Assembly: GCA_027019605.1 (NCBI GenBank)
Contig: JALUWJ010000075.1
Coordinates: forward strand, 1 to 64,000
From: Henriciella sp.
Lineage (GTDB): Bacteria; Pseudomonadota; Alphaproteobacteria; Caulobacterales; Hyphomonadaceae
Direction: 5' to 3'
DNA: 64,000 bases
Of this stretch, positions 29,184 to 44,397 are shown piece by piece; the stretch's first letter is position 1, and each line of letters opens with the position of its first letter. The position numbers were made by a program, and so were the translations under genes. The notes below the pieces were generated by a model, which was given only the letters and a program-made list of their open reading frames with translations, did not search any database and was not told the origin of the DNA.

Positions 29184-30146
29184 ATGGCCAATCTTCTTTG
29201 GTTGCAAGGGGGGGCTTGTTCAGGGAACACGATGTCGTTTCTAAACGCTGAAGAGCCCAGCGCATGCGATCTCGTAACTGACTTTGGAATTAATGTTCTG
29301 TGGCAGCCATCTCTCGGCCTTGAGTTAGGCGACAACGTTAAAACTATTCTGGAGAAGTGTATTTCTGGCGAAATTCAGCTCGATATTTTTGTATTCGAAG
29401 GAACTGTGATCAATGCGCCAGATGGAACCGGTGAGTGGAACCGGTTCTGCGGCGAGCCCATGAAGAACTGGGTAAAAAAGCTATGCGATGCGGCCCAATA
29501 CGTGGTTGCAATCGGTGATTGCGCTACATGGGGCGGCATTCCAGCGACCGCTCCAAACCCTTCCGATAGTGAAGGTCTTCAATTCCTCAAACGCGCAAAA
29601 GGTGGTGCATTGGGGGAGAACTTTGTTTCCAAAGCTGGGCTTCCAGTCATTAACATCCCTGGATGTCCAGCTCACCCCGACTGGGTAACTCAAATTTTGG
29701 TTGCAGTAGCTTCGGGGCGAGGCGGAGATCTTACTTTGGACGAATTCCAGAGGCCAAAAACATTCTTTGCGAGCTTTACCCAAACAGGCTGTACGCGAAA
29801 TATGCATTTTGCGTACAAAGTGTCGACCACCGCGTTTGGGCAGCGTAAGGGCTGTCTATTCTACGATCTAGGATGCCGCGGTCCAATGACCCACAGTCCA
29901 TGCAATCGCATCTTGTGGAACCGGCAATCTTCAAAAACACGGGCGGGTATGCCTTGCCTGGGCTGTACTGAACCAGAATTCCCATTCTTTGATCTTGCGC
30001 CGGGCACAGTTTTCAAAACGCAAACAGTTATGGGGGTTCCAAAGGACTTGCCAACTGGGGTCGATAAAAAAGGATATATGAAACTGACCGCTGCCGCCAA
30101 AAACGCTTCTCCGGCTTGGGCCGAAGAAGATATTTTCGTGGTTTAG
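29184..30146 (+). CDS. hupS: Group 2a [NiFe] hydrogenase small subunit (HupS/HucS-like)
   Basis: This 320-residue subunit carries the Fe-S relay from the active site. It has no Tat signal and no C-terminal membrane helix, as in cyanobacterial HupS and mycobacterial HucS (group 2a), which it resembles strongly in length and wording (WLQGGACSGNTMSFLNAEEP). Cluster cysteines visible: C12, C113 and C161 (proximal), C203, C224, C231, C240, C258 and C261. The usual proximal CxxC is C12-S-G-N15, and the distal histidine position is Q200, so at least one ligand is replaced in each of two clusters. It is the first gene of a long operon; GGAGG precedes the ATG. Confidence 0.95.
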   Translation: MANLLWLQGGACSGNTMSFLNAEEPSACDLVTDFGINVLWQPSLGLELGDNVKTILEKCISGEIQLDIFVFEGTVINAPDGTGEWNRFCGEPMKNWVKKLCDAAQYVVAIGDCATWGGIPATAPNPSDSEGLQFLKRAKGGALGENFVSKAGLPVINIPGCPAHPDWVTQILVAVASGRGGDLTLDEFQRPKTFFASFTQTGCTRNMHFAYKVSTTAFGQRKGCLFYDLGCRGPMTHSPCNRILWNRQSSKTRAGMPCLGCTEPEFPFFDLAPGTVFKTQTVMGVPKDLPTGVDKKGYMKLTAAAKNASPAWAEEDIFVV

Positions 30147-30170
30147 GCGAGCGCAGAGGGAAATAAGACA

Positions 30171-31766
30171 ATGTCAGCTATTCAAACACTTGATATATCG
30201 CCAGTCGGGCGAGTCGAAGGCGATCTAGATGTTCGCGTGGATATCCAGGACGGTGTGGTCACAAACGCTTGGACAAATGCAGAGATGTTCAGGGGCTTTG
30301 AGGTTATCCTTAAAGACAAAGACCCGCAGGCCGGGTTGGTCGTGACGCCGCGGGCTTGCGGGATATGCGGCGCGTCTCACCTGACCTGTGCAGCGTGGGC
30401 GCTCGATACCGCTTGGGGTACAACGGTACCGCGCAATGCGATTTTGGCGCGCAATCTGGGGCAGATTGTTGAGTCGCTTCAGTCGCTACCTCGCCATCAC
30501 TATGGCCTGTTCATGATTGACTTTACGAACCAAAACTACGCCAAAAGTCAGTATTTCGAGGAAGCCGTTAAACGCTATTCACCGTTCACTGGAACTTCAT
30601 ATGAAGCCGGAGTGACAATATCTGGAAGGCCCGTAGAAATTTACGCTCTACTTGGCGGGCAATGGCCGCATTCCTCATACATGGTGCCAGGTGGTGTAAT
30701 GTGTTCACCAACACTTACAGACGTAACGCGCTCTGTCGCGATCCTTGAGCATTTCCGTAGAAATTGGATCGAGCCACTTTGGTTCGGCTGTTCAATGGAG
30801 CGTTACGAGGAAATCCAGTCATATGATGACTTCATGGCTTGGTTGAATGAGAAACCTGAGCACGCGAATTCAGATCTCGGCATGTATTGGCGCATGGCGA
30901 TGGATATAGGCCTTGATAAATACGGCCGAGGCCACGCAAAATTCATTACTTGGGGATACCTGCCGCATGAGGACAAGTATCAAAACCCGACAATCGAAGG
31001 GCGCAATTCTGCCGTTATCATGAAATCAGGTGTTTATGACGGTGCCACCGATACGCATAAGCTCATGGATCAGGCAATGACACGAGAAGACGTGACGCAC
31101 GCTTGGTATGATGAGGTTGGTGGAACTCACCCATTTGATCGCGTGACCAATCCAGTAGGTAAGAATCCCATCGATCATGAGGGTAAATATTCTTGGTCGA
31201 CTGCGGTGCGCCATTCCGAAAACGGACGACTTGAAGCTGGGCCACTGGCTCGTCAATTGGTTGCGGGCGGCAGCCATGGAGAGGCTTGGCAGCATTCAGA
31301 TCCACTGATCTTGGACATGTACCGAAAGATGGGGGGGCCTTCTATCGCACTTCGCCATTTCGCGCGTATGCATGAGCTTTGCAAACTCTATCGTGAGGCT
31401 GAGCGAATTCTACGTGAGTTCAAGCTGAACGACGATTGGTATATTAAGCCCACAGAAAAAGATGGCCAAGGCTGGGGTGCAACCGAAGCTATCCGCGGAG
31501 CGCTGTGTCACTGGATCGATGTAAAAGATGGTAAGATAAGCAATTACCAAATCATTGCTCCGACAACGTGGAATGTGGGGCCGCGAGCAACGGACGGCGA
31601 AAGAGGCCCAATCGAGGAAGCCTTAATTGGAACTCCAATTCAGAATCCATCAGATCCCGTCGAGGTTGGGCACGTTTGCCGTTCGTATGATAGCTGCCTT
31701 GTTTGCACAGTTCATGCGCACGATGCCAAAACAGGTGAAGAGCTGGCCAGGTTCCGCACAGCGTAA
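30171..31766 (+). CDS. hupL: Group 2a [NiFe] hydrogenase large subunit (HupL/HucL-like)
   Basis: This 531-residue catalytic subunit oxidises H2 at the Ni-Fe(CN)2CO centre. The four nickel-ligating cysteines are in RACGIC (C63, C66) and DSCLVC (C509, C512). H515 precedes a 16-residue C-terminal extension (AHDAKTGEELARFRTA) to be removed by the endopeptidase encoded downstream. The canonical DPC of the L2 motif is DSC here. The protein should be cytoplasmic or at the inner face of the membrane. Group 2a enzymes include high-affinity hydrogenases that scavenge trace H2; affinity here is inferred, not shown. Confidence 0.95.
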   Translation: MSAIQTLDISPVGRVEGDLDVRVDIQDGVVTNAWTNAEMFRGFEVILKDKDPQAGLVVTPRACGICGASHLTCAAWALDTAWGTTVPRNAILARNLGQIVESLQSLPRHHYGLFMIDFTNQNYAKSQYFEEAVKRYSPFTGTSYEAGVTISGRPVEIYALLGGQWPHSSYMVPGGVMCSPTLTDVTRSVAILEHFRRNWIEPLWFGCSMERYEEIQSYDDFMAWLNEKPEHANSDLGMYWRMAMDIGLDKYGRGHAKFITWGYLPHEDKYQNPTIEGRNSAVIMKSGVYDGATDTHKLMDQAMTREDVTHAWYDEVGGTHPFDRVTNPVGKNPIDHEGKYSWSTAVRHSENGRLEAGPLARQLVAGGSHGEAWQHSDPLILDMYRKMGGPSIALRHFARMHELCKLYREAERILREFKLNDDWYIKPTEKDGQGWGATEAIRGALCHWIDVKDGKISNYQIIAPTTWNVGPRATDGERGPIEEALIGTPIQNPSDPVEVGHVCRSYDSCLVCTVHAHDAKTGEELARFRTA

Positions 31767-31784
31767 AACTTGTTTTAAACGAGA

Positions 31785-31832
31785 GATGTGCGTCATGAAA
31801 GGGAACTCATCGTTCCTTCCATGACGCGCATC
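31785..31832 (+). repeat. Intercistronic stem-loop after hupL
   Basis: GATGTGCGTCATG (31785-31797) pairs with CATGACGCGCATC (31820-31832) with one wobble, and an inner GGAAC/GTTCC extends the stem. No T-tract follows, so it is more likely an mRNA processing or stabilising element separating structural-gene from accessory-gene expression. Confidence 0.65.
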
Positions 31833-31846
31833 CTGAAAGAGCAGTG

Positions 31847-32230
31847 ATGACAGAAAAACCGGGAATGTCCGAACAGGGAGACGTTGGCAAAACACTCGAA
31901 CGATATGGTGTGACACCAAAGGATGCCAACCATGCAACTTTGATCAAAATGATAGAGGATATGTTTGAAGAGGGACTTGCTACTCAACTCGAGCCGTTTC
32001 CAGAAAATGATAGAGAGTTCTCAAAGTTACTGGATCAATTGCGTGAACTGAGCCCTGATGACCTTCGGCGAAAACTGATCATCAGTGGTTGGAAGCTGTC
32101 GCCCCATGGTGAGGACGACATGCGGTGCCAAGAGTGCATGTACTATCTTGTTCACAAACGTTGGTGTGACTTGCCTGAACTTGATTTGCCCGCCGAACCA
32201 GAATGGTGGTGCCGTTTGTGGCGGATTTAG
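31847..32230 (+). CDS. Four-cysteine hydrogenase-associated protein, paralogue A
   Basis: This protein of about 127 residues has a helical N-terminal part and a C-terminal motif C-x2-C-M-Y-Y-L-V-H-x3-W-C-D-L-P-E-L, then PEW-x-C-RLWRI. It therefore holds four cysteines and a histidine in a fixed pattern shared with the next gene. I do not recognise a named family. The pattern suggests a bound Fe-S cluster or zinc. Its place between the large subunit and its protease suggests a hydrogenase subunit or maturation factor. Whether it is related to HucM of mycobacteria could not be judged by eye. Confidence 0.75.
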   Translation: MTEKPGMSEQGDVGKTLERYGVTPKDANHATLIKMIEDMFEEGLATQLEPFPENDREFSKLLDQLRELSPDDLRRKLIISGWKLSPHGEDDMRCQECMYYLVHKRWCDLPELDLPAEPEWWCRLWRI

Positions 32231-32239
32231 GAGGGGGAT

Positions 32240-32572
32240 ATGTCCGATATTGGGGCCACTCGCGACGAAGATAATCTACGTGAAGAGATCGCTCAAAAAT
32301 TAAAGGCGGGATTAAAGACTGAAGTATTCCCACGCGCTGAAACCTCTGCCGCTGTGAACGCGATCATTATGCGGTTGCGTGAAGAGGCTGGCGCGAATGT
32401 CGAAAAGAAGCTCGTTATCGGCGGCTTCACCGACCACACGATCGAAGTCGAAGACATCGAGCAGCCCTGCGAAACGTGCATGTATTATCTGGTACACAGG
32501 AAGTTTTGTGAATTGCCAGAATTGATGCTGCCTGTTGAGCCAGAATGGTCTTGTCGGCTGTGGCGGATATAA
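32240..32572 (+). CDS. Four-cysteine hydrogenase-associated protein, paralogue B
   Basis: This 110-residue protein is clearly related to its upstream neighbour: the C-terminal CETCMYYLVHRKFCELPEL ... PEWSCRLWRI repeats the same cysteine/histidine/tryptophan pattern, and the LVIGGF segment parallels LIISGW. AGGAGGG precedes the ATG. The N-terminal parts differ more. Two adjacent paralogues may form a heterodimer or bind the two ends of the Fe-S relay; this is inference. Its stop lies inside the start region of the protease gene. Confidence 0.75.
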   Translation: MSDIGATRDEDNLREEIAQKLKAGLKTEVFPRAETSAAVNAIIMRLREEAGANVEKKLVIGGFTDHTIEVEDIEQPCETCMYYLVHRKFCELPELMLPVEPEWSCRLWRI

Positions 32573-33045
32573 AGCTGGCAATCATCGGATGCGGAAACAC
32601 AAACCGCAGTGACGATGGCGTTGGCCCGCACGTCGTCGCTGAACTACGAACTCGTGATCTGCCAGGTTGCGCAAAATTGTTCGATGGTGGCACTGACGGA
32701 ATGGGGGTCATGTACCAAGCCAAGGGCGCAACTCACCTGATCATCATCGATGCCCGTGCACCAGAAGACCAGCCCGGCGCGATATATGAGGTGCCAGGAG
32801 AGATCCTTGCCGCTCCACCTCCGCAAAGTCTGAATTTGCATGATTTTCGGTGGGATCACGCATTGTATGCGGGAAAAAAAATTTACGGAGATTCCTTTCC
32901 CAAGTACGTGAAAGTATTTCTGATTGAGGCGGAAAATTTGGAACTGGGCCTGGAGCTTTCCAGCGCCGTACAAAGCTCGGTAGCGCGAATTGCGAGTCGA
33001 ATTGAAGCGTTAGCCGCGGCGGGAACAGCGGGTGCTTGGTCGTGA
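32545..33045 (+). CDS. hupW: Hydrogenase maturation endopeptidase (HupW/HucD type)
   Basis: This 166-residue protein belongs to the HycI/HupD family that cleaves the large-subunit C-terminal tail after nickel insertion. Nickel-sensing acidic residues are visible in GCGNTNRSDDGVGPHVV (about 15-31), and DARAPED and LHDF follow in order. A start at 32545 overlaps the previous gene by 28 bases; a GTG at 32560 is an alternative. The stop overlaps the next GTG start. The substrate is very likely HupL of this operon. Confidence 0.9.
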   Translation: MVLSAVADIKLAIIGCGNTNRSDDGVGPHVVAELRTRDLPGCAKLFDGGTDGMGVMYQAKGATHLIIIDARAPEDQPGAIYEVPGEILAAPPPQSLNLHDFRWDHALYAGKKIYGDSFPKYVKVFLIEAENLELGLELSSAVQSSVARIASRIEALAAAGTAGAWS

Positions 33046-33347
33046 GTGCATGTCTTTCTGTCCGCAAAGGGTCGATATATATTCCCTCGTCAGACTGCGA
33101 GACCTATTTTCGTGGTCTCGACGCCGTAATCGTAGTTGTGAGAGAAAACGAGCTCAATGTTATGCCAGTTCAGCAAATGAGTGCTGGCGGTTACATTCTC
33201 AAAATTCGGAACGCGAACGGCGATCGGGTTGTGACCGCGCCTGACGTGTTTGCCGAGCATCAACTCATGGATTGGAATGATGATGCTGTAGAGGCTGTTT
33301 GGTGCTCTGAGCGAGGCGCTCTGATATGCGCTTTGCCTAAGGTGTAA
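33042..33347 (+). CDS. Unknown small hydrogenase-operon protein
   Basis: This 101-residue protein starts at a GTG overlapping the protease stop (GTGA), so it is translationally coupled. It looks like a compact mixed alpha/beta domain (SSDCETYFRGLDAVIVVVRENELNVMPV, then GGYILKIRNANGDRVV) with no membrane segment. I do not recognise it. It could match one of the unnamed conserved genes of group 2a loci. It is the last gene before a strong terminator-like hairpin. Confidence 0.65.
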   Translation: MSACLSVRKGSIYIPSSDCETYFRGLDAVIVVVRENELNVMPVQQMSAGGYILKIRNANGDRVVTAPDVFAEHQLMDWNDDAVEAVWCSERGALICALPKV

Positions 33348-33398
33348 ACTAACTTTACGCTATGAAAATTTTGTAGACAGTTAATTTTTCCTCCGCTA

Positions 33399-33444
33399 CG
33401 GCTTGTCACCTAAATAATAATTGCGGTGGCAAGCCGCTTTTTTT
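33399..33444 (+). terminator. Rho-independent terminator or attenuator inside the hup locus
   Basis: GGCTTGTCACC (33400-33410) pairs with GGTGGCAAGCC (33425-33435, one wobble) and seven T residues follow at 33438-33444. The next gene begins only 17 bases later, so this may act as an attenuator dividing structural from electron-transfer genes. Confidence 0.8.
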
Positions 33445-33460
33445 GCGTGGAGGAGCCCGG

Positions 33461-34450
33461 ATGGCACGGGAGAGTAGAGCTGCGGTTGAGGCCGATGCAG
33501 CCCGACAAGCAGTAATCGATGCCGATGCCGGGGTTGCAGAGAAAGCTGAGATGCTCATGGAAATTGCTATGGGGATGCAGCAGAAGCCGAAATCTCGAGA
33601 AGATTTGATCGAAGCCGTTTCACTCTATCAAGAGGCCATAGAGATGTGTCCGCCTGAAGAGGCTCTATTGGAGGCTAGGATATTCTCCCGAATGGCGACC
33701 GCGCAAATGATGATCCCCGCTGACGATGTTACGTTTTTGGACGCGGCCCGCTCATCAATGGAATCCGCGCTCGCAACACTGAGTACGCAAGGTAAGCCAG
33801 CGGAAGTTGCGGAGGCGGAAATGAATTACGGCCTAATACTGCAAAATTTGGCGGGCGCGAACCGCGCTCGGATCCAGGATTGTATTGGTGCGTATCAAAG
33901 AGCGCTTCGCACATTCGAAGCGAAACAATACCCAGCGGAGTTCGCTATTCTGCAAAACAATCTAGCGACCGCGTTTCTTTCTATTCCGTTTACCGACGAA
34001 CGATCAAAAATGCGAGAGGCATTGGCTGTGCAGGCATTTGAGGAGGGCTTGAAAGTGGTCACTTTGGTGGATCACCCCAGCGAATACGCAATGCTGCAAA
34101 ACAATCTGGGTAATGCTCTTCAATATGCTTCCTCTAGTCATCGAGTAGAGAATGGTTTCCGCGCGTTGGAGGCTTATGATGAAGCGCTGCGTGTTCGAAA
34201 CATCTCAGATACCCCTTTAGAGTATGCAAACACGATATCGAACAAAGCAAATTGTCTCGCTAACCTGCCGGATGCGCTTGACGCTCCAGAAAAGGGAAAT
34301 CCCGAGAACTTGGCCGATGCCATAGCTTTGTACAAAGAAGCGCTCGGCCTTTTTCAGCAGTTTGGCGAACTGCAAAAGGCGGACGCAGTGTCAGCAGCAA
34401 TACTCGAGCTCGAAGTAGACATCGAGAAAGCACAAAACTTACTGAATTAA
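33461..34450 (+). CDS. Tetratricopeptide-like protein of the hydrogenase locus
   Basis: This 329-residue, wholly alpha-helical protein contains repeated helix pairs of about 40 residues, with echoes such as YPAEFAILQNNLATAF and PSEYAMLQNNLGNAL (about 150 and 200) and TPLEYANTISNKANCL. These are TPR-type repeats used for protein binding. No signal peptide. Start at 33461 is chosen for TGGAGGAG eight bases upstream. In group 2a loci a TPR protein commonly accompanies the hydrogenase, perhaps as an assembly scaffold. Confidence 0.78.
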   Translation: MARESRAAVEADAARQAVIDADAGVAEKAEMLMEIAMGMQQKPKSREDLIEAVSLYQEAIEMCPPEEALLEARIFSRMATAQMMIPADDVTFLDAARSSMESALATLSTQGKPAEVAEAEMNYGLILQNLAGANRARIQDCIGAYQRALRTFEAKQYPAEFAILQNNLATAFLSIPFTDERSKMREALAVQAFEEGLKVVTLVDHPSEYAMLQNNLGNALQYASSSHRVENGFRALEAYDEALRVRNISDTPLEYANTISNKANCLANLPDALDAPEKGNPENLADAIALYKEALGLFQQFGELQKADAVSAAILELEVDIEKAQNLLN

Positions 34451-34471
34451 ACGGACTGGGAAGGAAATTTT

Positions 34472-34672
34472 ATGATTGCGACGCTGATTGCTTTAGGGCT
34501 GGGAGCCTTGGCCGCTCTAGTGGGAGGCATTAGTTCAGGGATTGTTATTGGTGGCGAAGCCCTCGGCAAAGAAATGGCCGGCGCGATGGGGGGATTGTAC
34601 GGGCTGTTGTCAGGTGGAGCCGCCGTCATTCTCGGTTTGCTCATTCTAACTTTTATTGTTGGAGCTGCCTAA
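34472..34672 (+). CDS. Tiny glycine-rich membrane protein A
   Basis: This 66-residue protein is almost entirely two hydrophobic segments (about 3-25 and 42-64) joined by a short loop GGEALGKEMAGAMGG. The Gly/Ala-rich hairpin recalls a c-ring-like helical hairpin but no acidic proton-binding residue is placed clearly mid-membrane. Family not recognised. GGGAAGGAAA precedes the ATG. The stop overlaps the next start (TAATG). It may help attach the soluble hydrogenase to the membrane. Confidence 0.72.
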   Translation: MIATLIALGLGALAALVGGISSGIVIGGEALGKEMAGAMGGLYGLLSGGAAVILGLLILTFIVGAA

Positions 34673-34893
34673 TGTTTGAGATGATTTTTGACTCAGTGAA
34701 ACTGTTTTTTACGGGCCGTCTTTTCCAAAATTACTCGAAAGTCATTCAGCTGTTTTTGGTCGGAGTGCTTTGCGGGACTGCAATCCTCGTTGCGCTTGGA
34801 TACTTTGTGTCTCCGATCGTGGGAGCGATTGGCGGCGGCCTCGTGGCGGGTATCATGCAACCCGTTCTCTTCAAAAACTTGAAATATAAATAA
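34672..34893 (+). CDS. Tiny membrane protein B
   Basis: This 73-residue protein has an amphipathic N-terminus (FDSVKLFFTGRLFQNYSKVI) and two short hydrophobic segments (about 25-45 and 46-65) with GAIGGGLVAGIMQPV between or within them. It is translationally coupled to the preceding tiny membrane protein and lies directly before the HucE-like gene. Not recognised. The pair could form a membrane platform for quinone access. Confidence 0.72.
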   Translation: MFEMIFDSVKLFFTGRLFQNYSKVIQLFLVGVLCGTAILVALGYFVSPIVGAIGGGLVAGIMQPVLFKNLKYK

Positions 34894-34897
34894 AGTA

Positions 34898-35764
34898 ATG
34901 GGTGATCCGAACCTCTCACAAACCGCCGAAGAACGGGATCTTAGTAGCCTGCTTTCAGATCTGGCCGCGCTTGAAGCGCTGGCAGAGAATTGGCCGGAAC
35001 AGCAAAAAAATGCTGCTTCGGCTCGAGGGGAAGCCATTGACGCTCTAAATGCTGCAGCATTTCGGCGCCTAATACGGATATTACAGTCGGTGCCAGGAAT
35101 ATCGAGCGCTCTGCGCGAAGCGGCAGGTGACGAAGTCGTTTACACAGTTCTTCGCCGTCACGGTATCTTGAAACCAAGCCTGCATGAGCAGGTGGACGAG
35201 GCGCTGAATTCTATCCGTCCTGCGCTAGCTTCACACGGCGGAGACGTTGAACTTGTATCCGTCGAAGAAACGTCAGTTACGGTTAGGTTTTTGGGTGCTT
35301 GCGATGGTTGCCCAGCATCTGCTTTGACCTTTTATGGCGGCGTCAAAAAAGCCATACAAGACAAGTTTTCAAACATTGTAGAGGTCAAACAAGCAAAAGG
35401 GCTAGGCGGAGGCGAAGGTGTCGAATACGCCTCTCCGTTCGCAAACTTCCAGAGAGAAGGTTGGACCAAAGCCATCGCGCTAGATGAAGTTTTGGACGGT
35501 ACAACAAAGGTTCTAGAAGTAGATGGTGAATCCGTCATTCTCACTCGCTTAGGCGACAAGGTGACCTGTTTCAAAAACGCCTGCGCTCATATGGGCATGG
35601 CTATGGATGGCGGTGACATCGATGATGCGATCATCACCTGTCCTTATCACGGCTTTCAATACTCGTTGGAAAGCGGTGAGTGCTTGACCGCACCAGAGGT
35701 GCAGCTTCAGCCGCACGGGGTGCGGGTGAAAGATGGTCAGATAGAAGTTCGTTTAACAAGGTAG
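34898..35764 (+). CDS. hucE: HucE-like NifU-Rieske iron-sulfur protein
   Basis: This 288-residue fusion has a helical N-terminal region (1-90), a NifU C-terminal-type domain (about 95-165, CDGC at 135-138) and a Rieske domain (about 190-288; C229-x-H231 and C248-x2-H251). In mycobacteria a NifU/Rieske-type protein named HucE is encoded next to the group 2a hydrogenase and is proposed to relay electrons toward the respiratory chain. The same role is likely here, with the two tiny membrane proteins upstream as possible partners. No signal peptide, so it should act on the cytoplasmic side. Confidence 0.85.
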   Translation: MGDPNLSQTAEERDLSSLLSDLAALEALAENWPEQQKNAASARGEAIDALNAAAFRRLIRILQSVPGISSALREAAGDEVVYTVLRRHGILKPSLHEQVDEALNSIRPALASHGGDVELVSVEETSVTVRFLGACDGCPASALTFYGGVKKAIQDKFSNIVEVKQAKGLGGGEGVEYASPFANFQREGWTKAIALDEVLDGTTKVLEVDGESVILTRLGDKVTCFKNACAHMGMAMDGGDIDDAIITCPYHGFQYSLESGECLTAPEVQLQPHGVRVKDGQIEVRLTR

Positions 35765-35768
35765 TGAC

Positions 35769-36947
35769 ATGAAAGTCTCAATGGCGTCTTCATTTGGTCC
35801 AATCAAAGCAGAGGGAACTGCTTTAAAGGGCGCGCCGCTTTTGTCGGAAGACGGCCCCTATGTTGTGCTGGGCTGGCAAGAACAAGAACTCGTCATGCCG
35901 AACACACCATCAGCATCTGTGCTATTTGGGCCGCGCGGAGCGGCACGGGCAAAAGACGGATCACTGTGGGTCGCTGATACCGGCCACCATCGTTTATTGG
36001 GGTGGTTAACTGGGCCGACTGTGGACAACCAAGATGCGGATATACTGATAGGTCAACCTTCTTATTCGCGCGAAGGGCGGAACGCCAAAGGCGAACCCAG
36101 TAAGTCAACTTTAAATGTTCCGACGGGTGTTTCGCGATGGCGCGACGGGATTGCTGTAGCAGATGCATGGAACCATCGCGTTTTGCTTTGGCACGAAGTG
36201 CCAAAAATTCAGAATCAACCTGCAGATATTGTCCTTGGTCAAAAGGATGGGTGTTCCATCGAAGCGAACCATGGCCGAGACGCTCCGCGCGCGACGAGTC
36301 TGCATTGGCCATATGGAGTTGTCGAGGTTGATGGGAAGCTCGCCGTTTGCGATGCGGGCAATCGGCGAGTTTTGATATGGAATTCTCCTGAGGAAACAGG
36401 ACAACCCGCAGACCTTGTTCTTGGCCAAAACAACATGGAGACGAGAGATGAAAACTGTGGTCAAGAAATTGGCCGCATGGGGATGCGCTGGCCACACGCA
36501 GCAGTGAACTGGCAGGGCGGATTTGCAGTCGCTGACGCTGGGAATAACCGAGTCATGCTTTGGGATGAGTGGCCAACACAAAATGGCCAGCCTTGCAGCC
36601 ATGTTCTGGGGCAGAAGAATTTCACGGACTGCGATCACAATCTTGCATCTTACTATCCAACGTCCGCCGCCCTTAATATGCCTTACGCGGTAGCCGTTAG
36701 CGAAAACAAGTTGCTCGTTGCGGATACCGCAAACTCCAGACTCGTAGGCTGGCGGGAAACGACTACCGGCGCCGATGCGGATTGGCTAACAGGGCAACCG
36801 GATTTTGCTTCGAAAGGTGATAATCGATGGGGAATTATTGAGCGAGATTCCCTCTGTTGGCCGTATGGCATCACGAGTTCAGATGACGAGTTGATTATCG
36901 CGGATAGCGGAAACAACCGTGTCCTTCTGTGGAGGATGGCGAAATGA
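35769..36947 (+). CDS. NHL-repeat beta-propeller protein
   Basis: This 392-residue protein contains about six NHL-like repeats, each with a DxxxxRVLxW strand: VADTGHHRLLGW, VADAWNHRVLLW, VCDAGNRRVLIW, VADAGNNRVMLW, VADTANSRLVGW and IADSGNNRVLLW. It should fold as a six-bladed propeller. No signal peptide is obvious. Similar genes occur in group 2a hydrogenase loci, where a scaffold or assembly role is assumed. It overlaps hypF by four bases (ATGA). Confidence 0.85.
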   Translation: MKVSMASSFGPIKAEGTALKGAPLLSEDGPYVVLGWQEQELVMPNTPSASVLFGPRGAARAKDGSLWVADTGHHRLLGWLTGPTVDNQDADILIGQPSYSREGRNAKGEPSKSTLNVPTGVSRWRDGIAVADAWNHRVLLWHEVPKIQNQPADIVLGQKDGCSIEANHGRDAPRATSLHWPYGVVEVDGKLAVCDAGNRRVLIWNSPEETGQPADLVLGQNNMETRDENCGQEIGRMGMRWPHAAVNWQGGFAVADAGNNRVMLWDEWPTQNGQPCSHVLGQKNFTDCDHNLASYYPTSAALNMPYAVAVSENKLLVADTANSRLVGWRETTTGADADWLTGQPDFASKGDNRWGIIERDSLCWPYGITSSDDELIIADSGNNRVLLWRMAK

Positions 36948-39322
36948 GCTCCCGCCTCGCTGGCGAATTGATTGTGGTGCGCGGTCAAGTCCAAGGAGTT
37001 GGTTTTCGGCCAACCGTCTGGCGGCTTGCGCATGAATTAGAATTGGTTGGCGATGTTTGCAACACTCCTGAGGGCGTCAATATTCGACTATGGGGTGATC
37101 GGATCTCGGCTTTTGTTGAACGCTTGCAGAGTGAAGCGCCGCCGCTAGCGCGTATTCAAGAGATGGAACGTCGATCAGTGAGCGGTGAAATCCCCACTGC
37201 ATTTGAGATCGCCCAGACATCCGAAGGCGTGATGCGCGTTGCAATCACGCCGGACGCTGCCACTTGTCAGGATTGTCTAGACGAGATCAACGACCCTTTT
37301 GATCGGCGCTTTCGGTACCCATTTGCAAATTGCACAAATTGTGGCCCTCGCTTTTCAATCATTCACGGCGCACCTTATGATCGTGCAAAGACCAGTATGC
37401 GAGCCTTTGATCTTTGCGGTGATTGTCAAACGGAGTACGAGAACCCGTTAGACCGACGTTATCACGCTCAACCCGTTGCATGCCACATGTGCGGTCCAAA
37501 AGCTTGGATAGAAAAGCTCGGTCAGGGCATCGTTAACTGCGAAGCCTTCTCTATGTTAGATGATGTTGACGCAGTCGGCGGGATGCTGAAATCAGGTGAA
37601 ATAGTTGCCATTAAAGGACTTGGCGGATTTCATCTCGCTTGCGATGCGACTAATTCTGCTAGCGTTGAAAAACTACGAGAACGAAAGCAGCGCAAAGACA
37701 AGGCGTTCGCGCTCATGGCGCGCGATATCGAAGCGATCTCGGCCTTTGCACACATAACTGCGGAGGAGGAAGCGCTGTTACGCTCTAGCGCTGCTCCAAT
37801 TGTCCTACTTGAAGCGCGACGCGATGCTCACTTGCCGGACGCTGTCGCCCCCGGACTAAATCGTCTGGGCTTCATGCTGCCGTATACACCGCTTCATCAT
37901 ATCATGCTGAAGCGCATGACACGGCCAATCGTTATGACATCTGGTAACATCTCCGGCGAACCTCAATGTTACACGAACGAAGCTGCTCGAAACCGGTTGG
38001 CTGAAGTCGCCGACTTTGGCTGCATGACCGATCGAGATATCGTCAATCGCATTGACGATAGCGTGGTGCGTTGTGATCTTGGTGCTCCCAGAATACTAAG
38101 ACGAGCGCGCGGTTTTGCGCCATCTTCGCTATTGCTTCCTCCAGGGTTGGAGAATGCGCCTCCCATGATTGCGTACGGTGCGGATCTAAAAAACGCCTTC
38201 TGCTTAGTGAAAGATGGCGAAGCCATTTTGAGTCAACATATGGGGGACCTGGCGGACCCCACGACCGCGGACGAACTAACGCACAATCTTTCACTCTACC
38301 GTGATTTGTATGAACACGTTCCGGCAACAATCGTTGTGGATCAGCACCCAGAGTATTTTTCCTCCAAATTGGGTAAACACGACGCGGATCAGTTGGATCT
38401 TCCACTGATCGAGGTGCAACATCACCACGCGCATATTGCGTCGTGCATGGCGGAGAATGCGTGGCCAACGGATGGCGGCGATGTTCTCGGGATCGCGCTC
38501 GATGGAGCCGGGTGGGGCGGCGACGGGACAATATGGGGCGGAGAGTTTCTGGCTTGCAACTACACTTCGTTTAAACGACTGGCGATGCTAAAACCGGTGG
38601 CTCTACCTGGTGGTGATGCTGCAGCGCGTGAGCCTTGGAGGAATGCGTACGCGCATATTACTGCACAGATGGGGTGGGCTGAGTTCGCAATGAATTTCTC
38701 TGACTTGGATATATTCAAGTTCTTGAGTTTAAAGCCAAGAGACACCCTCGATAGCATGATCTCAGAGCAGGTGAATTCACCTAAATCAACATCCTGTGGC
38801 CGTTTGTTTGATGCAGCTGCCGCAATTGCTGGTCTGGCGCCGGAACGTCAAACCTATGAAGGTCAAGCTGCAATGCTATTTGAGGCCGCGATTGACCCAA
38901 GTGCGCTCGATGAGAGTTCAGATCTGGATTACCCATTTTCTATTCCCCTAATAGATGGACATGGCATGCCATACATCGAACCGTTAGCTGTATGGAGAGC
39001 GATGCTTGGCGATCTGGTATTGCAAACCCCTATAGGTGTGATTGCAGCTAGATTTCACCGCGGTTTAGCCCGGGCAATTGTGGCGATGGCCAAACGCCTC
39101 ATGGGGGACCAACCGACTTTCTCAGCGGTCGCTCTCTCGGGCGGCTGCTTCCAAAATCAAACTCTCTTCAAACTCGTGCATGGACATTTGAGAGACGCTG
39201 AAATCGACGTCCTGACACACAAACAAGTTCCAGCAAATGACGGTGGTATTGCGCTTGGACAAGCCACGATCGCCGCCGCAATTATTCTTAACCAAAACCA
39301 AGGGAGCAAACGATGTGTTTAG
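36944..39322 (+). CDS. hypF: HypF carbamoyltransferase
   Basis: This 792-residue enzyme makes the thiocarbamoyl group that becomes the active-site cyanide ligands. Order: acylphosphatase domain (about 5-95, VRGQVQGVGFRPTVWRLA), two zinc-finger-like blocks (CQDCLDEINDP ... NCTNCGPRFSI and CGDCQTEY ... CHMCGP), a YrdC-like domain (about 210-390), and a Kae1-like domain with HHHAHIASCMAE. Full length for the family. The ATG at 36944 overlaps the NHL gene stop. Confidence 0.95.
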   Translation: MSSRLAGELIVVRGQVQGVGFRPTVWRLAHELELVGDVCNTPEGVNIRLWGDRISAFVERLQSEAPPLARIQEMERRSVSGEIPTAFEIAQTSEGVMRVAITPDAATCQDCLDEINDPFDRRFRYPFANCTNCGPRFSIIHGAPYDRAKTSMRAFDLCGDCQTEYENPLDRRYHAQPVACHMCGPKAWIEKLGQGIVNCEAFSMLDDVDAVGGMLKSGEIVAIKGLGGFHLACDATNSASVEKLRERKQRKDKAFALMARDIEAISAFAHITAEEEALLRSSAAPIVLLEARRDAHLPDAVAPGLNRLGFMLPYTPLHHIMLKRMTRPIVMTSGNISGEPQCYTNEAARNRLAEVADFGCMTDRDIVNRIDDSVVRCDLGAPRILRRARGFAPSSLLLPPGLENAPPMIAYGADLKNAFCLVKDGEAILSQHMGDLADPTTADELTHNLSLYRDLYEHVPATIVVDQHPEYFSSKLGKHDADQLDLPLIEVQHHHAHIASCMAENAWPTDGGDVLGIALDGAGWGGDGTIWGGEFLACNYTSFKRLAMLKPVALPGGDAAAREPWRNAYAHITAQMGWAEFAMNFSDLDIFKFLSLKPRDTLDSMISEQVNSPKSTSCGRLFDAAAAIAGLAPERQTYEGQAAMLFEAAIDPSALDESSDLDYPFSIPLIDGHGMPYIEPLAVWRAMLGDLVLQTPIGVIAARFHRGLARAIVAMAKRLMGDQPTFSAVALSGGCFQNQTLFKLVHGHLRDAEIDVLTHKQVPANDGGIALGQATIAAAIILNQNQGSKRCV

Positions 39323-39609
39323 GAATTCCAGCGCAGATTGTGTCCATTTCTGATGCGACTAAAAAGCTTGCAATGGTCGAGGTCTCGGGAGTTCAACGCG
39401 AGGTCAATGTTGCCTGCATAATGCCAGAGAGCGGCGACGCGGATGAATTGCTCGGCGCTTGGGCATTGATCCACGTTGGGTTTGCGATGAGCCGGATAAA
39501 TGAAGAGGAGGCTAAGAAGACTTTAGAGATCCTCATCCAGCTCGGCGAAGCGCAAGCAGAAATAGAGGCAATGCGCCACGGACAAGCTGCATTGGAGGGG
39601 TCATCATGA
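39313..39609 (+). CDS. hypC: HypC chaperone
   Basis: This 98-residue chaperone starts MCLGIPAQIV; Cys2 is the residue that holds the Fe(CN)2CO unit with HypD and delivers it to the large subunit. The conserved GAWALIHVGFAMSRINEEEA block follows. It overlaps hypF at its start and hypD at its end. Confidence 0.95.
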   Translation: MCLGIPAQIVSISDATKKLAMVEVSGVQREVNVACIMPESGDADELLGAWALIHVGFAMSRINEEEAKKTLEILIQLGEAQAEIEAMRHGQAALEGSS

Positions 39610-40751
39610 AGTACGCTGACGAGTTTCGCGACCCTGAGGCGGTCAATACGGTTTTATCAGAGATCGAACGCATTATTGACGAAATTGGTGCCACCGCCGA
39701 CCAGCCTATCCACATTATGGAAATTTGCGGCGGGCACACTCACGCAATCTTTAGGTATGGGTTGGATAAGCTAACGCCGGAAGGGCTAGAGTTTATTCAT
39801 GGCCCTGGGTGTCCTGTCTGCGTGCTACCCATGGCCCGCGTAGACGAATGCGTAGAGCTAGCTGAGCGTCCAGAGGTTATATTTACGACCTTTGGCGATG
39901 CCGTCCGGGTGCCCGGGACCAAGAAATCGCTTCTCCAGGCCAAAGCAGATGGCGCGGATATTAGGATCGTTTACTCGCCTCTCGATGCCTTAGAACTGGC
40001 GCGCCAAAATCCTGATCGCGAGGTGGTTTTCTTTGCATTGGGCTTTGAGACAACAACGCCGTCAACCGCTCTTTGCGTGCAACAAGCAGCACAAGAAAAA
40101 ATCTCCAATTTTTCCCTCTTTTGCAATCATATCACAGTCCCGCCACCGATCAAAGTTCTCTTGGATGATCCATACATGAAGCTGGATGGGTTTGTTGGGC
40201 CAGGTCACGTTTCCATGGTGATAGGCTTGGAGCCTTATGAGTTCATTGCCCGCGACTATAATAAACCAATCATCGTCGCCGGATTCGAACCTGTAGATTT
40301 GCTGCAATCAGTGATGATGGTTTTGGAACAAATCAAATCAGGGCAAGCTAAGGTCGAAAACCAGTATGCCAGAATTGTTCCAGATCAAGGCAATCCCGTT
40401 TCCATCGCCGCCTGTGAAGATGTCTATGAACGGCGTGAATCTTTTGAATGGCGCGGCCTGGGTGAAATCGATGAATCTGGCCTCAAAATCCGAGAAAAGT
40501 ACGCGTCGTTCGATGCTGAGAGAAAATTTGGCATCGGCTATGGCCAAGCATCACGGGTCGTAGAAGAACCCGAAGGCTGTCGGTGCGGTGATGTAATGAC
40601 GGGCCGTATCAAGCCAATTCAATGCGAGCAATTCGGCAAAGGATGCACGCCGGAACGGCCATTGGGTGCGTTAATGGTTTCTTCCGAGGGAGCATGCGCG
40701 GCATACTATCAATACGGAGGGGTTCGTCCGGACCTGGAGCCGGCCGTATGA
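39606..40751 (+). CDS. hypD: HypD Fe-S assembly scaffold
   Basis: This 381-residue protein carries the Fe(CN)2CO precursor with HypC. Conserved blocks are CGGHTHAIFRYGLD, GPGCPVCVLP and the C-terminal cluster cysteines around EGCRCGDVMTGRIKP and GKGCTPERPLGALMVSSEGACAAYY. Length and motif order are standard. It overlaps hypC and hypE by four bases each. Confidence 0.95.
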   Translation: MKYADEFRDPEAVNTVLSEIERIIDEIGATADQPIHIMEICGGHTHAIFRYGLDKLTPEGLEFIHGPGCPVCVLPMARVDECVELAERPEVIFTTFGDAVRVPGTKKSLLQAKADGADIRIVYSPLDALELARQNPDREVVFFALGFETTTPSTALCVQQAAQEKISNFSLFCNHITVPPPIKVLLDDPYMKLDGFVGPGHVSMVIGLEPYEFIARDYNKPIIVAGFEPVDLLQSVMMVLEQIKSGQAKVENQYARIVPDQGNPVSIAACEDVYERRESFEWRGLGEIDESGLKIREKYASFDAERKFGIGYGQASRVVEEPEGCRCGDVMTGRIKPIQCEQFGKGCTPERPLGALMVSSEGACAAYYQYGGVRPDLEPAV

Positions 40752-41794
40752 AACAGGCCGCGCAAACCGCTAGAAAACTGCGCGGCACTCATGTGACGCT
40801 CGCACATGGCGGTGGCGGGAAAGCCATGCGTGATCTGATTGAAGATGTGTTCACAAGCCGCTTTAAACCAAACGGTGCTGAAGACCAGGCCCGATTGGAG
40901 CCGGGTGCCCTCGCTCAGGAAGGCGCGAAGCTTGCCTTCACTACAGATAGTTTTGTGGTCTATCCTCTGGAATTTCCGGGCGGTGATATTGGGCGCATCT
41001 CTGTATGTGGCACAGTCAATGATCTAGCGGTCGGAGGTGCTACTCCACTTTGGTTATCTGCCTCGTTCATTTTGGAGGAGGGCATCGATGTGGATCTATT
41101 GCGCCGCGTCGTTGATTCGATGTGCAAGGCTGCCGATGAGGCGGGCGTGAAAATTGTCACCGGAGACACTAAAGTCGTAGAACGGGGAAGCGCCGACAAA
41201 TTGTTCATTACGACGTCAGGCGTGGGTGTCATCCCGTCAGGTCGAAATCTCTCCGCCACCTCCGTCCGTGAGGGAGACGTTGCAATTGTCAGCGGGCTGC
41301 TAGGAGATCACGGCGCAACGATATTGGCTGCCAGAGGAGACTTGGCAATCAATGCGGATATTAGGTCAGACGGCCAACCTCTTGGTGAACTGATGGACGC
41401 AGTGATCAATGCTGCGCCAAATTTGCGTTGTTCGCGCGACGCGACCCGCGGTGGATTGGCTTCAGCCTTGAACGAAATTGCAGAAGCGTCCGCTGTCAGT
41501 ATTCTAATCGACGAAACGCTATTACCCCTTAGAAAAGAAGTTAGAGGTGTTTGCGAAATCCTCGGCCTTGACCCTCTTTACCTGGCAAACGAAGGGGCTT
41601 TGGTCGTTTTCGCTCCGGAAAGCGAAGCCAATGCAGCGCTTGAGGCCATGCGATCTGTCAAAGCGGGAAAGAATGCTGCGATCATTGGGCATGCAAAAAG
41701 CGGAATTGCCGGTCGTGTGGAAATGAAAACGATATTTGGAGGAGCAAGAATCGTCGAAATGCTGGTGGGTGAACAGTTGCCGAGGATTTGTTGA
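40748..41794 (+). CDS. hypE: HypE carbamoyl dehydratase
   Basis: This protein of about 348 residues belongs to the PurM-like AIR synthase fold. It contains HGGGGKAMRDLI near the N-terminus and ends with the diagnostic PRIC tail, whose terminal cysteine accepts the carbamoyl group from HypF and becomes a thiocyanate. The ATG at 40748 overlaps the hypD stop; upstream in-frame sequence belongs to hypD. Confidence 0.95.
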   Translation: MKQAAQTARKLRGTHVTLAHGGGGKAMRDLIEDVFTSRFKPNGAEDQARLEPGALAQEGAKLAFTTDSFVVYPLEFPGGDIGRISVCGTVNDLAVGGATPLWLSASFILEEGIDVDLLRRVVDSMCKAADEAGVKIVTGDTKVVERGSADKLFITTSGVGVIPSGRNLSATSVREGDVAIVSGLLGDHGATILAARGDLAINADIRSDGQPLGELMDAVINAAPNLRCSRDATRGGLASALNEIAEASAVSILIDETLLPLRKEVRGVCEILGLDPLYLANEGALVVFAPESEANAALEAMRSVKAGKNAAIIGHAKSGIAGRVEMKTIFGGARIVEMLVGEQLPRIC

Positions 41795-42514
41795 ATGTTT
41801 GGAATTCTCGCACTCGGATTTTTGATTGGCATGACCCACGCTCTAGAAGCAGACCATCTCGCAGCTATGGCGGCTATTTCAAGCGACCACACTGCACAAA
41901 AACGAAAGATGATGTTGCGTGGCGCATTTTGGGGGGCTGGACACAGCCTTACTTTATTTGCCTTAGGTGGCGTGGTGATTGTCTTCGGTTTTGTTTTAAC
42001 CGATGCCACGGCTGCACGACTGGAATTTTCTGTGGGCGCGATGCTGGTTTTGCTAGGACTACATCTCGTTGTCCGTATGTGGCGTCGCAAAATCCACTTT
42101 CATGCACATCGTCATGAAGACGGAAAAGCACACCTGCATGCTCACAGTCACCATGGTGAAAAAAGCGCACATTCTGATTCATCACATCAGCACTCTCATC
42201 CAGATGGCTTGCCCTGGCGCGCGCTTATCGTAGGGCTTGTCCATGGTGCCGCTGGATCGGCCGGATTATTGACGCTTGTCATTGCAACCACGCAGAGTGC
42301 ATTGGTTGCTTTGGCCTATATCCTCGTTTTCGGTGTCGGATCCATCGTCGGTATGGCGGTTCTCTCTTATGCAGTCGCATGGCCGCTTGGCGCAATCGAG
42401 CGTTCCGCACGTAAAATCCACGTGACCGTTACGGTTCTTGCTGCTTTGTTTGCGGTCGGCATCGGCGTGAATGTGATGCGCTCTACTGCGGCGCTGGCTT
42501 GGGTAGGAGCCTGA
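41795..42514 (+). CDS. NicO/UreH-family nickel permease (HupN-like)
   Basis: This 239-residue membrane protein of about six segments carries the nickel-transporter signature HALEADH (15-21; H-x4-DH) and a His-rich loop (about 105-135, with HFHAHRHEDGKAHLHAHSHH). It begins directly after hypE and precedes hypA and hypB, so it most likely supplies Ni2+ for the hydrogenase. The fold could also transport cobalt. Confidence 0.85.
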   Translation: MFGILALGFLIGMTHALEADHLAAMAAISSDHTAQKRKMMLRGAFWGAGHSLTLFALGGVVIVFGFVLTDATAARLEFSVGAMLVLLGLHLVVRMWRRKIHFHAHRHEDGKAHLHAHSHHGEKSAHSDSSHQHSHPDGLPWRALIVGLVHGAAGSAGLLTLVIATTQSALVALAYILVFGVGSIVGMAVLSYAVAWPLGAIERSARKIHVTVTVLAALFAVGIGVNVMRSTAALAWVGA

Positions 42515-42515
42515 G

Positions 42516-42758
42516 ATGCACGAGTTGGGATTAAGCCGTTCCATAGCTGCGATCGTGACAGAAAACTCTATGGGACGCCAAGTTCGAAGAGTCTCAGTCG
42601 CAGTAGGTCCACTCGCCTGCGTCGAGAAGCGTGCTCTGGCGTTTTGCTGGGATATTGTAACCGAAGGCGGGCCGCTGGCTGGATCACTACTGGAGTTTGT
42701 GGACGCCGAAGGCGACGTGTTTTTGGTTAAAGAGTTTGAATTTGAGGAGGCTGCGTAA
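42516..42758 (+). CDS. hypA: HypA-like nickel insertion protein lacking the zinc domain
   Basis: This 80-residue protein matches the nickel-binding half of HypA: MHELGLSRSIAAIV with the N-terminal MH nickel ligand, VRRVSVAVGPLACVEKRALAFCWD. HypA proteins are normally near 115 residues, with a four-cysteine zinc loop in the second half. Here the sequence ends after ...FEFEEAA with no CxxC pair. The stop overlaps the hypB ATG in frame with intact genes on both sides, so simple truncation by rearrangement is not evident. The zinc-ribbon protein at 28569 might supply the missing part. Confidence 0.85.
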   Translation: MHELGLSRSIAAIVTENSMGRQVRRVSVAVGPLACVEKRALAFCWDIVTEGGPLAGSLLEFVDAEGDVFLVKEFEFEEAA

Positions 42759-43597
42759 TGTGCGGAACTTGTGGATGTTCAGATCCTATGAATAGCGTGA
42801 CTATCGAAGATGCAAAAACTGGCGAACGCCGGGTGCTGCGAGAAGGTGGGATCTTAAAACACAATGAACATGAACCCCATCATCACCACTCTGATCACGA
42901 GCATTCCCATGAAGGAGATGATCGTCCGCATGTACATGGGCCTAATGGCGAGATTATCAGTCTTGAAGCTGCCGTCATGTCGAAAAATGATGCTATTGCA
43001 GCGCAAAACCGAGGTTGGTTTGAAGGACGGCGTGTGCTCGCGCTCAATTTAGTCAGTTCGCCTGGTGCGGGCAAAACTTCCTTGCTCGAATACACAATTC
43101 GAAATTTTTCAAAAGACCATCCGATTGCAGTGATTGAAGGGGATCAGATGACTGCAAACGACGCCGAACGCGTGCGTGACGCAGGTGCACAGGCAGTACA
43201 AATCAATACCGGCGCGGGTTGCCACCTTGAGGCAGATATGATCGCGGAAGCGGTTAAATCACTCGAATTGGAAGCGGGTGCCGTCTTGATGATCGAAAAT
43301 GTGGGGAATCTCGTTTGTCCTTCGATGTTTGATCTCGGCGAGCGCATGAAGATTGCCGTGATTTCGGTGACCGAAGGGGAAGACAAACCACTAAAATATC
43401 CGCACATGTTTCGGGCGTCGAAGTGTGTGCTGATCAATAAGGTCGATATCGCCGAGGCTGTCGAGTTCGACGAAACGCAATGTCGCGAAAACATTCTATC
43501 CGTTAATCCTGAGGCGAAAATTTTAGCCTTGTCCGCGAAGACCGGAGAGGGAACTGCAAAATGGTTCGAATTTTTAACGGAGCTATGTGAGAGCTGA
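42758..43597 (+). CDS. hypB: HypB nickel-delivery GTPase
   Basis: This 279-residue GTPase starts MCGTCGCSD, the high-affinity nickel motif, followed by a His-rich stretch (about 35-60, nickel storage) and a G domain with P-loop SSPGAGKTS (100-108), VIEGDQ, and NKVDIAE. It delivers nickel with HypA and closes the hyp operon. Confidence 0.95.
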   Translation: MCGTCGCSDPMNSVTIEDAKTGERRVLREGGILKHNEHEPHHHHSDHEHSHEGDDRPHVHGPNGEIISLEAAVMSKNDAIAAQNRGWFEGRRVLALNLVSSPGAGKTSLLEYTIRNFSKDHPIAVIEGDQMTANDAERVRDAGAQAVQINTGAGCHLEADMIAEAVKSLELEAGAVLMIENVGNLVCPSMFDLGERMKIAVISVTEGEDKPLKYPHMFRASKCVLINKVDIAEAVEFDETQCRENILSVNPEAKILALSAKTGEGTAKWFEFLTELCES

Positions 43598-43862
43598 GGG
43601 CTACAGTCCGGAAGAGAGTATTGCGGTGCGCTCTCAATTGCCGGTTTTGATACCTCATACGATTAGAATTACTCATTCTAGGGTCGGCCAATCTGTTATT
43701 TGGCGGCCCGTTTTCTATTCGCTATATATGAGAAAATTTCGCCAAAAATCCCAAACGGAACGTCGGCGCAACTTATCGGTTGAATTTAAATAGAAGTCAG
43801 TGATTTGGTCACTTTCGGTTTGAATGGTTTCTGTACTACGGACCATTGAAGAGGAGAATCAT
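43598..43862. other. Intergenic stretch between hydrogenase and sulfur modules
   Basis: No gene is supported. AGTGA-TTTGG-TCACT (43797-43811 region) is a short inverted repeat upstream of the DsrE-like gene. The AT-rich tract around 43715-43745 could hold its promoter. GAGGAG precedes the GTG start at 43863. Confidence 0.35.
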
Positions 43863-44387: not shown

Positions 44388-44397
44388 AGTTCAGTAG

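Follow-up and report, generated by a model that had tools for sequence, protein, structure and literature searches.

A group 2a [NiFe]-hydrogenase module on a predicted integrative and conjugative element in the tRNA-Met gene of a Henriciella-group alphaproteobacterium

Background

Among the group 2a (Huc/Hup-type) [NiFe]-hydrogenases that have been studied, the nearest relative of the enzyme treated here is plasmid-borne: Sphingopyxis alaskensis RB2256, which carries it on its F plasmid (hucL Sala_3198), is reported to draw H2 to sub-atmospheric levels in exponential phase (Lappan 2023, PMC10305171). Here we describe a related module in a 64,000-nucleotide stretch of Henriciella sp. DNA (hereafter the window, i.e., positions 1 to 64,000 of the forward strand of contig JALUWJ010000075.1, GenBank assembly GCA_027019605.1). 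We consider, with a probability of about 85%, that a 60.7-kb integrative and conjugative element (ICE) inserted in tRNA-Met of this Henriciella-group alphaproteobacterium (Hyphomonadaceae) carries a complete group 2a module, that the element would be transferable and that the enzyme would oxidize the H2 of air.

The gene order of the S. alaskensis module is nearly the same from the transcriptional activator to hypB, two genes for small hydrophobic proteins included; its HupL and HupS are 86% and 90% identical to those of the window, and both modules encode a HypA of 80 amino acids (aa). They differ in vehicle (a 28.5-kb mobilizable MOBQ plasmid as against an ICE), in a SIS-domain gene that stands between hypC and hypD on the plasmid and not in the window, and in the DUF3422 protein, the plasmid version of which is 29% identical to that of the window and encoded in the opposite orientation. 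Huc of Mycobacterium smegmatis (PDB 7UTD/7UUS), as described in the available text of PMC10017518, is homologous to HupS and HupL over their full length and has the cysteine-rich motifs as well as HucE and NHL relatives in common with the window. M. smegmatis needs HucE for its Huc to be active (Islam et al. 2019, PMC6883350), genes for HucE and NHL proteins accompany group 2a hydrogenases (PMC7784904), and HucM serves Huc as scaffold and quinone tube (PMC10017518). The group 2a cluster of Acidithiobacillus ferrooxidans has a putative high-potential iron-sulfur protein (HiPIP) gene, DN052_04130, near hupLS, and this protein and a Rieske protein were proposed as electron carriers; there is one such candidate there as against a pair in the window, and the available text of PMC7735108 does not describe mobility. 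Islands CMGI-2 and CMGI-3 of Cupriavidus metallidurans (Tn4371 family) are ICE-like and, similar to the window, combine trb/tra with hydrogenase (hox) and hyp genes, but theirs are membrane-bound (MBH) and soluble (SH) hydrogenases, and insertion sequence elements are linked to their cassettes, as far as the accessible part of PMC2864759 goes.

Among the literature matches listed, none describes a group 2a enzyme carried by an ICE, and no report on a hydrogenase in Henriciella was found, with most subscription papers lying outside both searches. A group 2a enzyme on an ICE is apparently new; mobile hydrogenases are already known from the S. alaskensis plasmid and the Cupriavidus islands, the MBH and SH of which we take to fall outside group 2a.

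Anatomy of the element

The features that delimit and would move the element are as follows.

1368..1444, forward strand: tRNA-Met (CAT), the integration site (ARAGORN)
1400..1446, forward strand: attL, a 47-bp repeat overlapping the 3' part of tRNA-Met and identical to 62134-62180 (a longer 84-bp match is 94% identical)
5481..6485, forward strand: ArdC-type antirestriction protein (PF08401, PF18818)
7922..8761, forward strand: TraF conjugative signal peptidase, start unchecked (TIGR02771 below cut-off, PF10502 above)
8758..10659, forward strand: RlxS-like relaxase (NF041267 at 578.9 bits, cut-off 850; PF11843 and PF03432 above cut-off)
12409..14394, forward strand: TraG/VirD4 coupling protein (NF010450 above cut-off)
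14878..23889, forward strand: Trb-type conjugation system (TrbB, E, J, L, F, G and I by profile, TrbC by eye)
60673..62031, reverse strand: tyrosine integrase with arm-binding domain, start unchecked, just inside attR (PF00589 E 8.9e-22, PF13356)
62134..62180, forward strand: attR, the exact copy of attL

Judged by its sequence, the 60.7-kb element has the anatomy of an ICE, i.e., att repeats (60,734 bases from repeat to repeat), integrase, relaxase, coupling protein and Trb system. TraG, TrbB, TrbE, TrbJ and TrbF pass the NCBIfam cut-off of at least one model, and the flanks are host-like, bases 1-121 and 62257-63994 matching genome G001 at 98% and 81%. ICEMlSym-type elements, too, have an RlxS relaxase and a Trb system; the window shares an RlxS-like relaxase and Trb with them but differs in its tRNA-Met site, its H2-oxidation cargo and an RlxS score below cut-off. 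An AbiEi/AbiEii toxin-antitoxin pair lies near the left end of the element (3601-5107). In five genomes of the genus (G001, G004, G009, G018 and G024), a second att-like copy is seen 3-9 kb from the first at tRNA-Met, and in G004 and G018 a short related integrase match (~180 bases, 71%) lies nearby; the tRNA-Met site looks like an insertion hotspot.

Distribution and recent movement

The HupL of the window is rare among its relatives. Within 61 genomes searched, it was found in 3 of 29 from the same genus (the window's own included) and in none of the 32 other relatives, with three further relatives holding only remote matches (26-34%). HupL of at least 80% identity is present in 4 of 385 genomes of the class (8 with any match at E 1e-60) and 4 of 398 of the phylum (33 with any match), the window's own genome being counted in both.

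Element DNA recurs nearly unchanged in two genomes of the same genus whose hosts are far more divergent. G020 holds window 12246-45914 (33.7 kb) at 99.42% identity, with 9 differences in 12246-36999, as well as window ~9533-12252 at 100% and the left end at tRNA-Met at 99.9%. G025 holds 1362-15280 (13.9 kb) at 99.93% and 44155-62216 (18.1 kb) at 99.95%, and both pieces continue into flanking host sequence of G025. Given that the rpoB loci are only 76.2% (G020) and 85.7% (G025) identical to that of the window host, element DNA is 14-23 points more alike than rpoB over at least 32 kb, and recent transfer is the best explanation; near-identical element DNA in clearly different species suggests very recent movement. 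The differences between the window and contig C11 of G020 are unevenly spread, 136 of 195 falling within 43000-44999, and the two copies may have recombined around this region.

The group 2a module of G025 is another, diverged one (HupL 88-89%) and lies elsewhere (G025:C11:40357-61865; L018, L019), by a tRNA-Asp and an integrase-family gene; no second att copy for this tRNA-Asp was found with exact 15-mers in 120 kb, the other 15-mer matches being confined to a single short run around 88.6 kb of the contig. A HupL tree of 84 rows was built by a quick method (outgroup Thermus, Mycobacterium and Runella; near-copies L110, L111, L122, L127 and L129-L132 left out). In it, the window pairs with an Erythrobacteraceae bin (SH-aLRT, the Shimodaira-Hasegawa-like approximate likelihood ratio test, 98), and the pair lies in a starred alphaproteobacterial set of 21 rows in which six named orders are represented.

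Several observations weigh against an ICE that moves between species. G020 yielded no near-identical match to window 2963-9532 or to the right arm, and the G025 assembly none to 15280-29500, its sole HupL being the 89% copy. On the HupL tree, order labels cluster strongly (20 changes, with 17 the least possible and a shuffled mean of 38.7), and a clade of the window HupL with the other Henriciella copy, that of G025, is not rejected by the approximately unbiased (AU) test (p 0.217). Bins in the tree can hold foreign contigs, and the window genome (G000) is itself a draft bin, 84.46% complete with 5.28% contamination. Furthermore, excision and transfer are predictions from sequence.

The last of these points, together with the unrejected Henriciella clade and the restriction of the integrase DNA to the genus (it is present in 1 of 385 class genomes, which is the window's own, and within the genus also in G025), would fit a genomic island without remaining mobility, acquired long ago, now inherited vertically and keeping its conjugation genes as relics. 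We regard such an island as quite improbable, given that those conjugation and integrase genes that were checked have open reading frames, most of each being covered by profile matches, that the element DNA is near-identical in spite of the rpoB divergence and that 26 of 29 genus genomes lack this HupL. Cross-species matches could also arise from draft assemblies that are contaminated or chimeric: the window bin comprises 327 contigs and has the contamination given above, G025 is a low-coverage metagenome-assembled genome, and the 35-kb hydrogenase contig of G020 (C11) shows no host flank. The window contig, however, joins the element to genus-matching sequence on both sides, and in contigs C27 and C1 of G025 and C9 of G020, one end of the element runs at this same tRNA into the flank of the respective host, which makes an assembly artefact very improbable. 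Movement as an ICE is what we consider best suited to these data. The original prediction had cast the locus as transferable cargo of patchy distribution, to be refuted by vertical inheritance in the host lineage; the exact tRNA repeats, the conjugation system and the 99.4-100% identical DNA in diverged species agree with mobile cargo, presence in 3 of 29 genus genomes agrees with patchiness, and all of these contradict vertical inheritance.

Plasmid-borne relatives

Related modules are also found on plasmids. HupL is matched by 128 of 72,556 plasmid records, 12 of them at 80-86% identity, and the module regions were examined for six of these twelve best. By plasmid typing, those of S. alaskensis and Bradyrhizobium are mobilizable, those of Octadecabacter and Roseovarius conjugative and those of Novosphingobium and Mesorhizobium non-mobilizable. 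Over at least 14.6 kb, the module of the Octadecabacter plasmid matches that of the Roseovarius plasmid, as well as draft contigs of Nioella, Aestuariivita and Brevirhabdus, at 99.98-99.99% identity; for a Thiosulfatihalobacter contig, the figure is 97.45%. Novosphingobium pLA5 does not differ from Sphingopyxis sp. H115 over 21.6 kb, both being 97.4-97.5% identical to S. alaskensis. On Mesorhizobium huakuii pMHb (L112:1-31590), the group 2a module adjoins a run of Calvin-cycle (cbb) genes, according to the annotation as deposited.

The hydrogenase and its class

The structural genes head the run from hupS to hypB.

29184..30146, forward strand: HupS, group 2a small subunit, 320 aa (Huc small subunit match E 3e-156)
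30171..31766, forward strand: HupL, group 2a large subunit (Huc large subunit match E 7.7e-188)

Among solved structures, both subunits find Huc of M. smegmatis as their top match, at 628.7 bits for HupL (next hydrogenase 208.2 bits) and 522.8 bits for HupS (next 124.5 bits), i.e., a lead of ~400 bits for HupS and HupL alike. HupS, the N-terminus of which reads MANLLWLQGGACSG, is without a Tat leader and has the cysteine-rich stretches GGACSGNTMSFLNA, GCPAHPDW and GCRGPMTHSPCNRILWNRQSSKTRAGMPCLGCTEPEFP in common with Huc. HupL runs 16 residues past the end point of the Huc chain, a tail as expected of an uncleaved precursor. By its nearest solved enzyme, the window HupSL is a group 2a [NiFe]-hydrogenase of the Huc/Hup type, an assignment based on closeness to Huc, as the HupL tree held 2a-type rows only. 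In the cyanobacterial loci listed, HupL is 73-77% and HupS 73-84% identical to the window proteins.

The cyanobacterial likeness leaves room for an ordinary uptake hydrogenase that consumes locally made H2 (e.g., from nitrogenase), given that the role reported for the cyanobacterial enzymes, in the part of PMC7784904 at hand, is the recycling of nitrogenase H2. We consider such a role improbable: the nearest studied relative (HupL 86%) draws H2 below the atmospheric level in a heterotroph, as reported in the available text of PMC10305171, and no nitrogenase gene was noticed in the window, though none was searched for in window or genome. On the strength of the nearly shared gene order and the 86-90% identity of hupSL, we infer for the window the function of the S. 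alaskensis module, i.e., scavenging of atmospheric H2, and the high affinity of the window enzyme would likewise follow that of this relative.

Maturation genes and a HypA without zinc domain

The hyp genes follow downstream.

36929..39322, forward strand: HypF (tblastn match coincides with annotated hypF of the S. alaskensis plasmid, L108)
39313..39609, forward strand: HypC (tblastn match coincides with an annotated S. alaskensis plasmid gene)
39606..40751, forward strand: HypD (tblastn match coincides with an annotated S. alaskensis plasmid gene)
40748..41794, forward strand: HypE, start chosen by the hypD overlap (tblastn against the annotated S. alaskensis plasmid gene)
41795..42514, forward strand: NicO-type nickel transporter (PF03824 E 4.6e-07)
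42516..42758, forward strand: HypA, 80 aa, zinc domain absent (PF01155 positions 1-69 of 112 only; alignments)
42758..43597, forward strand: HypB (PF02492)

HypA is described as having a nickel domain and a zinc domain (2025 review, PMC12134894, in the part available). The window protein keeps the N-terminal nickel domain with its MHE start, but the C-terminal zinc-finger domain is missing and there is no CxxC; it is HypA-derived rather than a canonical HypA. In a search that covered the genomes of 30 of the 80 hydrogenase loci, HypA was found in 29 of the 30, the best match being short (80-81 aa, no CxxC) in 19 and 111-125 aa long with CxxC in 10 (in L259 and L260, it has 125 aa and the zinc-finger cysteines); two genomes gave an additional, weaker match that lies in longer open frames, and an additional short copy is present in one. 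The HypA of the S. alaskensis plasmid is the short form, which thus occurs in a strain with working H2 uptake. A HypA without zinc domain is apparently new, no report of one being present among the literature matches listed. A single loss of the zinc domain was considered and set aside, as two changes are required on the HupL tree (17 rows with the short form, 13 with the full one), yet one clade is unrejected (AU p 0.476).

Extent of the module and its accessory genes

The remaining genes of the module, apart from four small ones treated below, are these.

25725..27008, reverse strand: DUF3422 protein, a companion gene in some hup loci (PF11902 E 2.9e-86)
27113..28576, forward strand: sigma-54 dependent activator (PF00158 E 2.5e-58)
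32545..33045, forward strand: hydrogenase maturation protease (TIGR00072 above cut-off)
33036..33347, forward strand: small conserved protein (matches in 70 of 89 related loci)
33443..34450, forward strand: conserved 335-aa protein, TPR-like by homology only (35% identical to a Thermus protein annotated TPR)
34898..35764, forward strand: HucE-like NifU-Rieske protein (PF01106 and PF00355)
35769..36947, forward strand: NHL-repeat protein (PF01436 E 7.5e-26)

Since genes for the DUF3422 protein and the sigma-54 activator recur in related loci and both are present in the window, we set the module at 25725-43597, larger than the run from hupSL to the hyp genes outlined in the original prediction. 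It comprises DUF3422, sigma-54 activator, hupSL, two four-cysteine proteins, protease, two hydrophobic proteins, NifU-Rieske and NHL proteins, hypFCDE, nickel transporter, hypA and hypB. DUF3422 is its least certain member, with matches in 6 of 89 related loci (57% identity in L117, 52% in L120 and 29% in L108, L111, L127 and L154); in L120, the gene sits inside the hydrogenase module.

The prediction's claims on gene content mostly held. A group 2a (Hup/Huc-like) identity agrees with HupL being closest to Huc by far, the small subunit is indeed a 320-residue protein without Tat signal that resembles cyanobacterial HupS, and the genes for all six hyp functions (HypF, C, D, E, A and B) follow one another at 36929-43597, with the NicO gene standing between hypE and hypA. 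From the trio of HucE-like, TPR and NHL companions, the first and last are borne out by Pfam, while the 335-aa protein has no Pfam match at E 0.001 and only its likeness to the Thermus protein speaks for TPR; the comparison with mycobacterial huc loci stands for the HucE-like and NHL genes, while no HucM relative was found at E 0.01 in window 25001-46000.

The activator was matched by tblastn in 61 of 89 related loci and is annotated just upstream of hupS on the S. alaskensis, Octadecabacter, Roseovarius, Novosphingobium and Bradyrhizobium plasmids; we presume a HupR/HoxA-like role. A GG/GC-core scan gave sites 72-112 bases upstream of hupS, with 0-2 mismatches, in 8 of 12 relatives checked. 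Speaking against such regulation in the window, no canonical sigma-54 site is present upstream of its hupS, nor in L109, L117, L120 and L124; the consensus scan gave 27 matches in the window against 37.8 expected (shuffled), none of them in the 400 bases before hupS. Overlapping the 3' end of the activator gene is a small protein (28512-28787) with a zinc-ribbon-like end (by eye; Pfam E 1.5), which was matched in 57 of 89 related loci.

Small four-cysteine and hydrophobic proteins where no HucM was found

Two pairs of small proteins complete the module.

31844..32230, forward strand: small four-cysteine protein 1, HiPIP-like C-terminal domain (four Cys in 69 of 69 aligned sequences)
32240..32572, forward strand: small four-cysteine protein 2, paralogue of protein 1 (four Cys in at least 68 of 69 aligned rows)
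34472..34672, forward strand: small hydrophobic protein 1, 66 aa (56% over 41 aa to the S. alaskensis plasmid gene in the same place; hydrophobicity by eye)
34672..34893, forward strand: small hydrophobic protein 2, 73 aa (48% over 73 aa to the S. alaskensis gene; hydrophobicity by eye)

The cysteines are spaced C-x2-C-x9-C-x14-C (single-gene loci stand in both 69-row alignments), and four cluster-binding cysteines are the motif of HiPIPs. By motif pattern, which missed L193, at least two such genes are present in 48 of 90 loci (window included), one in 21 and none in 21, the last including both loci with DUF1641 and most cyanobacteria. The model of protein 1 has a predicted local distance difference test score (pLDDT) of 92.6, and all 9 entries listed for it by VIA-align are HiPIPs (Z 3.4-4.0, root-mean-square deviation 2.4-3.1). 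Other results tell against a HiPIP: these Z scores are modest, Foldseek against the PDB returned nothing under E 0.001 (best E 2.4, unrelated folds), and Pfam gave no HiPIP match for the four-cysteine proteins (best E 0.023, DUF4037). A sequence search of the PDB with protein 1 likewise gave only an unrelated best match (E 0.076). We consider the pair as putative HiPIP-like electron carriers, by structural model and by analogy with A. ferrooxidans.

HucM belongs to DUF1641, as the M. intracellulare plasmid protein upstream of hucS is a DUF1641 protein and matches the HucM chain 7uus_Q at E 2.9e-34. No tblastn match to it at E 0.01 was found in window 25001-46000 or in 87 of the 89 other loci, where a diverged subunit is possible; the only matches are in L114 and L115, the sources of the queries (M. 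intracellulare and Thermus). Huc has HucM; in the window, where no relative of it was found, two HiPIP-like and two small hydrophobic proteins are present. In the cyanobacteria that lack four-cysteine genes neither gene type was found. HiPIP-like small proteins where no HucM is found are apparently new, and as a guess, the hydrophobic pair before the NifU-Rieske gene might be a membrane anchor.

A second cargo block

43824..60561, strand not assigned: second cargo block (DsrE, rhodaneses, peroxiredoxins, cytochrome bd (cydAB), SulP, SQR-like, persulfide-dioxygenase-like, BigR-like and YeeE-like proteins)

The "-like" proteins score below curated NCBIfam cut-offs, and several other labels were given by eye. 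The block resembles sulfide/persulfide handling plus cytochrome bd, and its cydAB could be an outlet for H2 electrons.

Proposed working and implications

In the working that we propose, the integrase would excise the element, RlxS, TraG and Trb would transfer it, and it would re-insert at tRNA-Met. Expression would be controlled by the sigma-54 activator; HypC-F would build the active site, HypAB load nickel and the protease trim HupL. The cytosolic HupSL would then oxidize H2 in air to sub-atmospheric levels during growth, and its electrons would reach quinone and the terminal oxidases by way of the small HiPIP-like proteins, the Rieske protein of HucE type or both. More broadly and only tentatively, we suggest that the alphaproteobacterial group 2a enzymes might form a mobile sub-type in which a tandem HiPIP-like pair in the cytosol, perhaps with the membrane anchors, takes the place of the HucM scaffold in passing electrons to the respiratory chain, nickel being delivered in one branch by a zinc-less HypA, and that the kit might be passed from order to order by ICEs and conjugative plasmids, making the metabolism of air hydrogen portable.

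By analogy with S. alaskensis, the module probably lets its marine-type host live partly on trace H2. Atmospheric H2 oxidation is scattered across bacteria, and here the vehicle, the target site and apparently fresh transfers are readable, so that the spread of the trait becomes testable. The zinc-less HypA and the HiPIP-like pair pose two biochemical questions, how these enzymes are matured and how they are wired into respiration.

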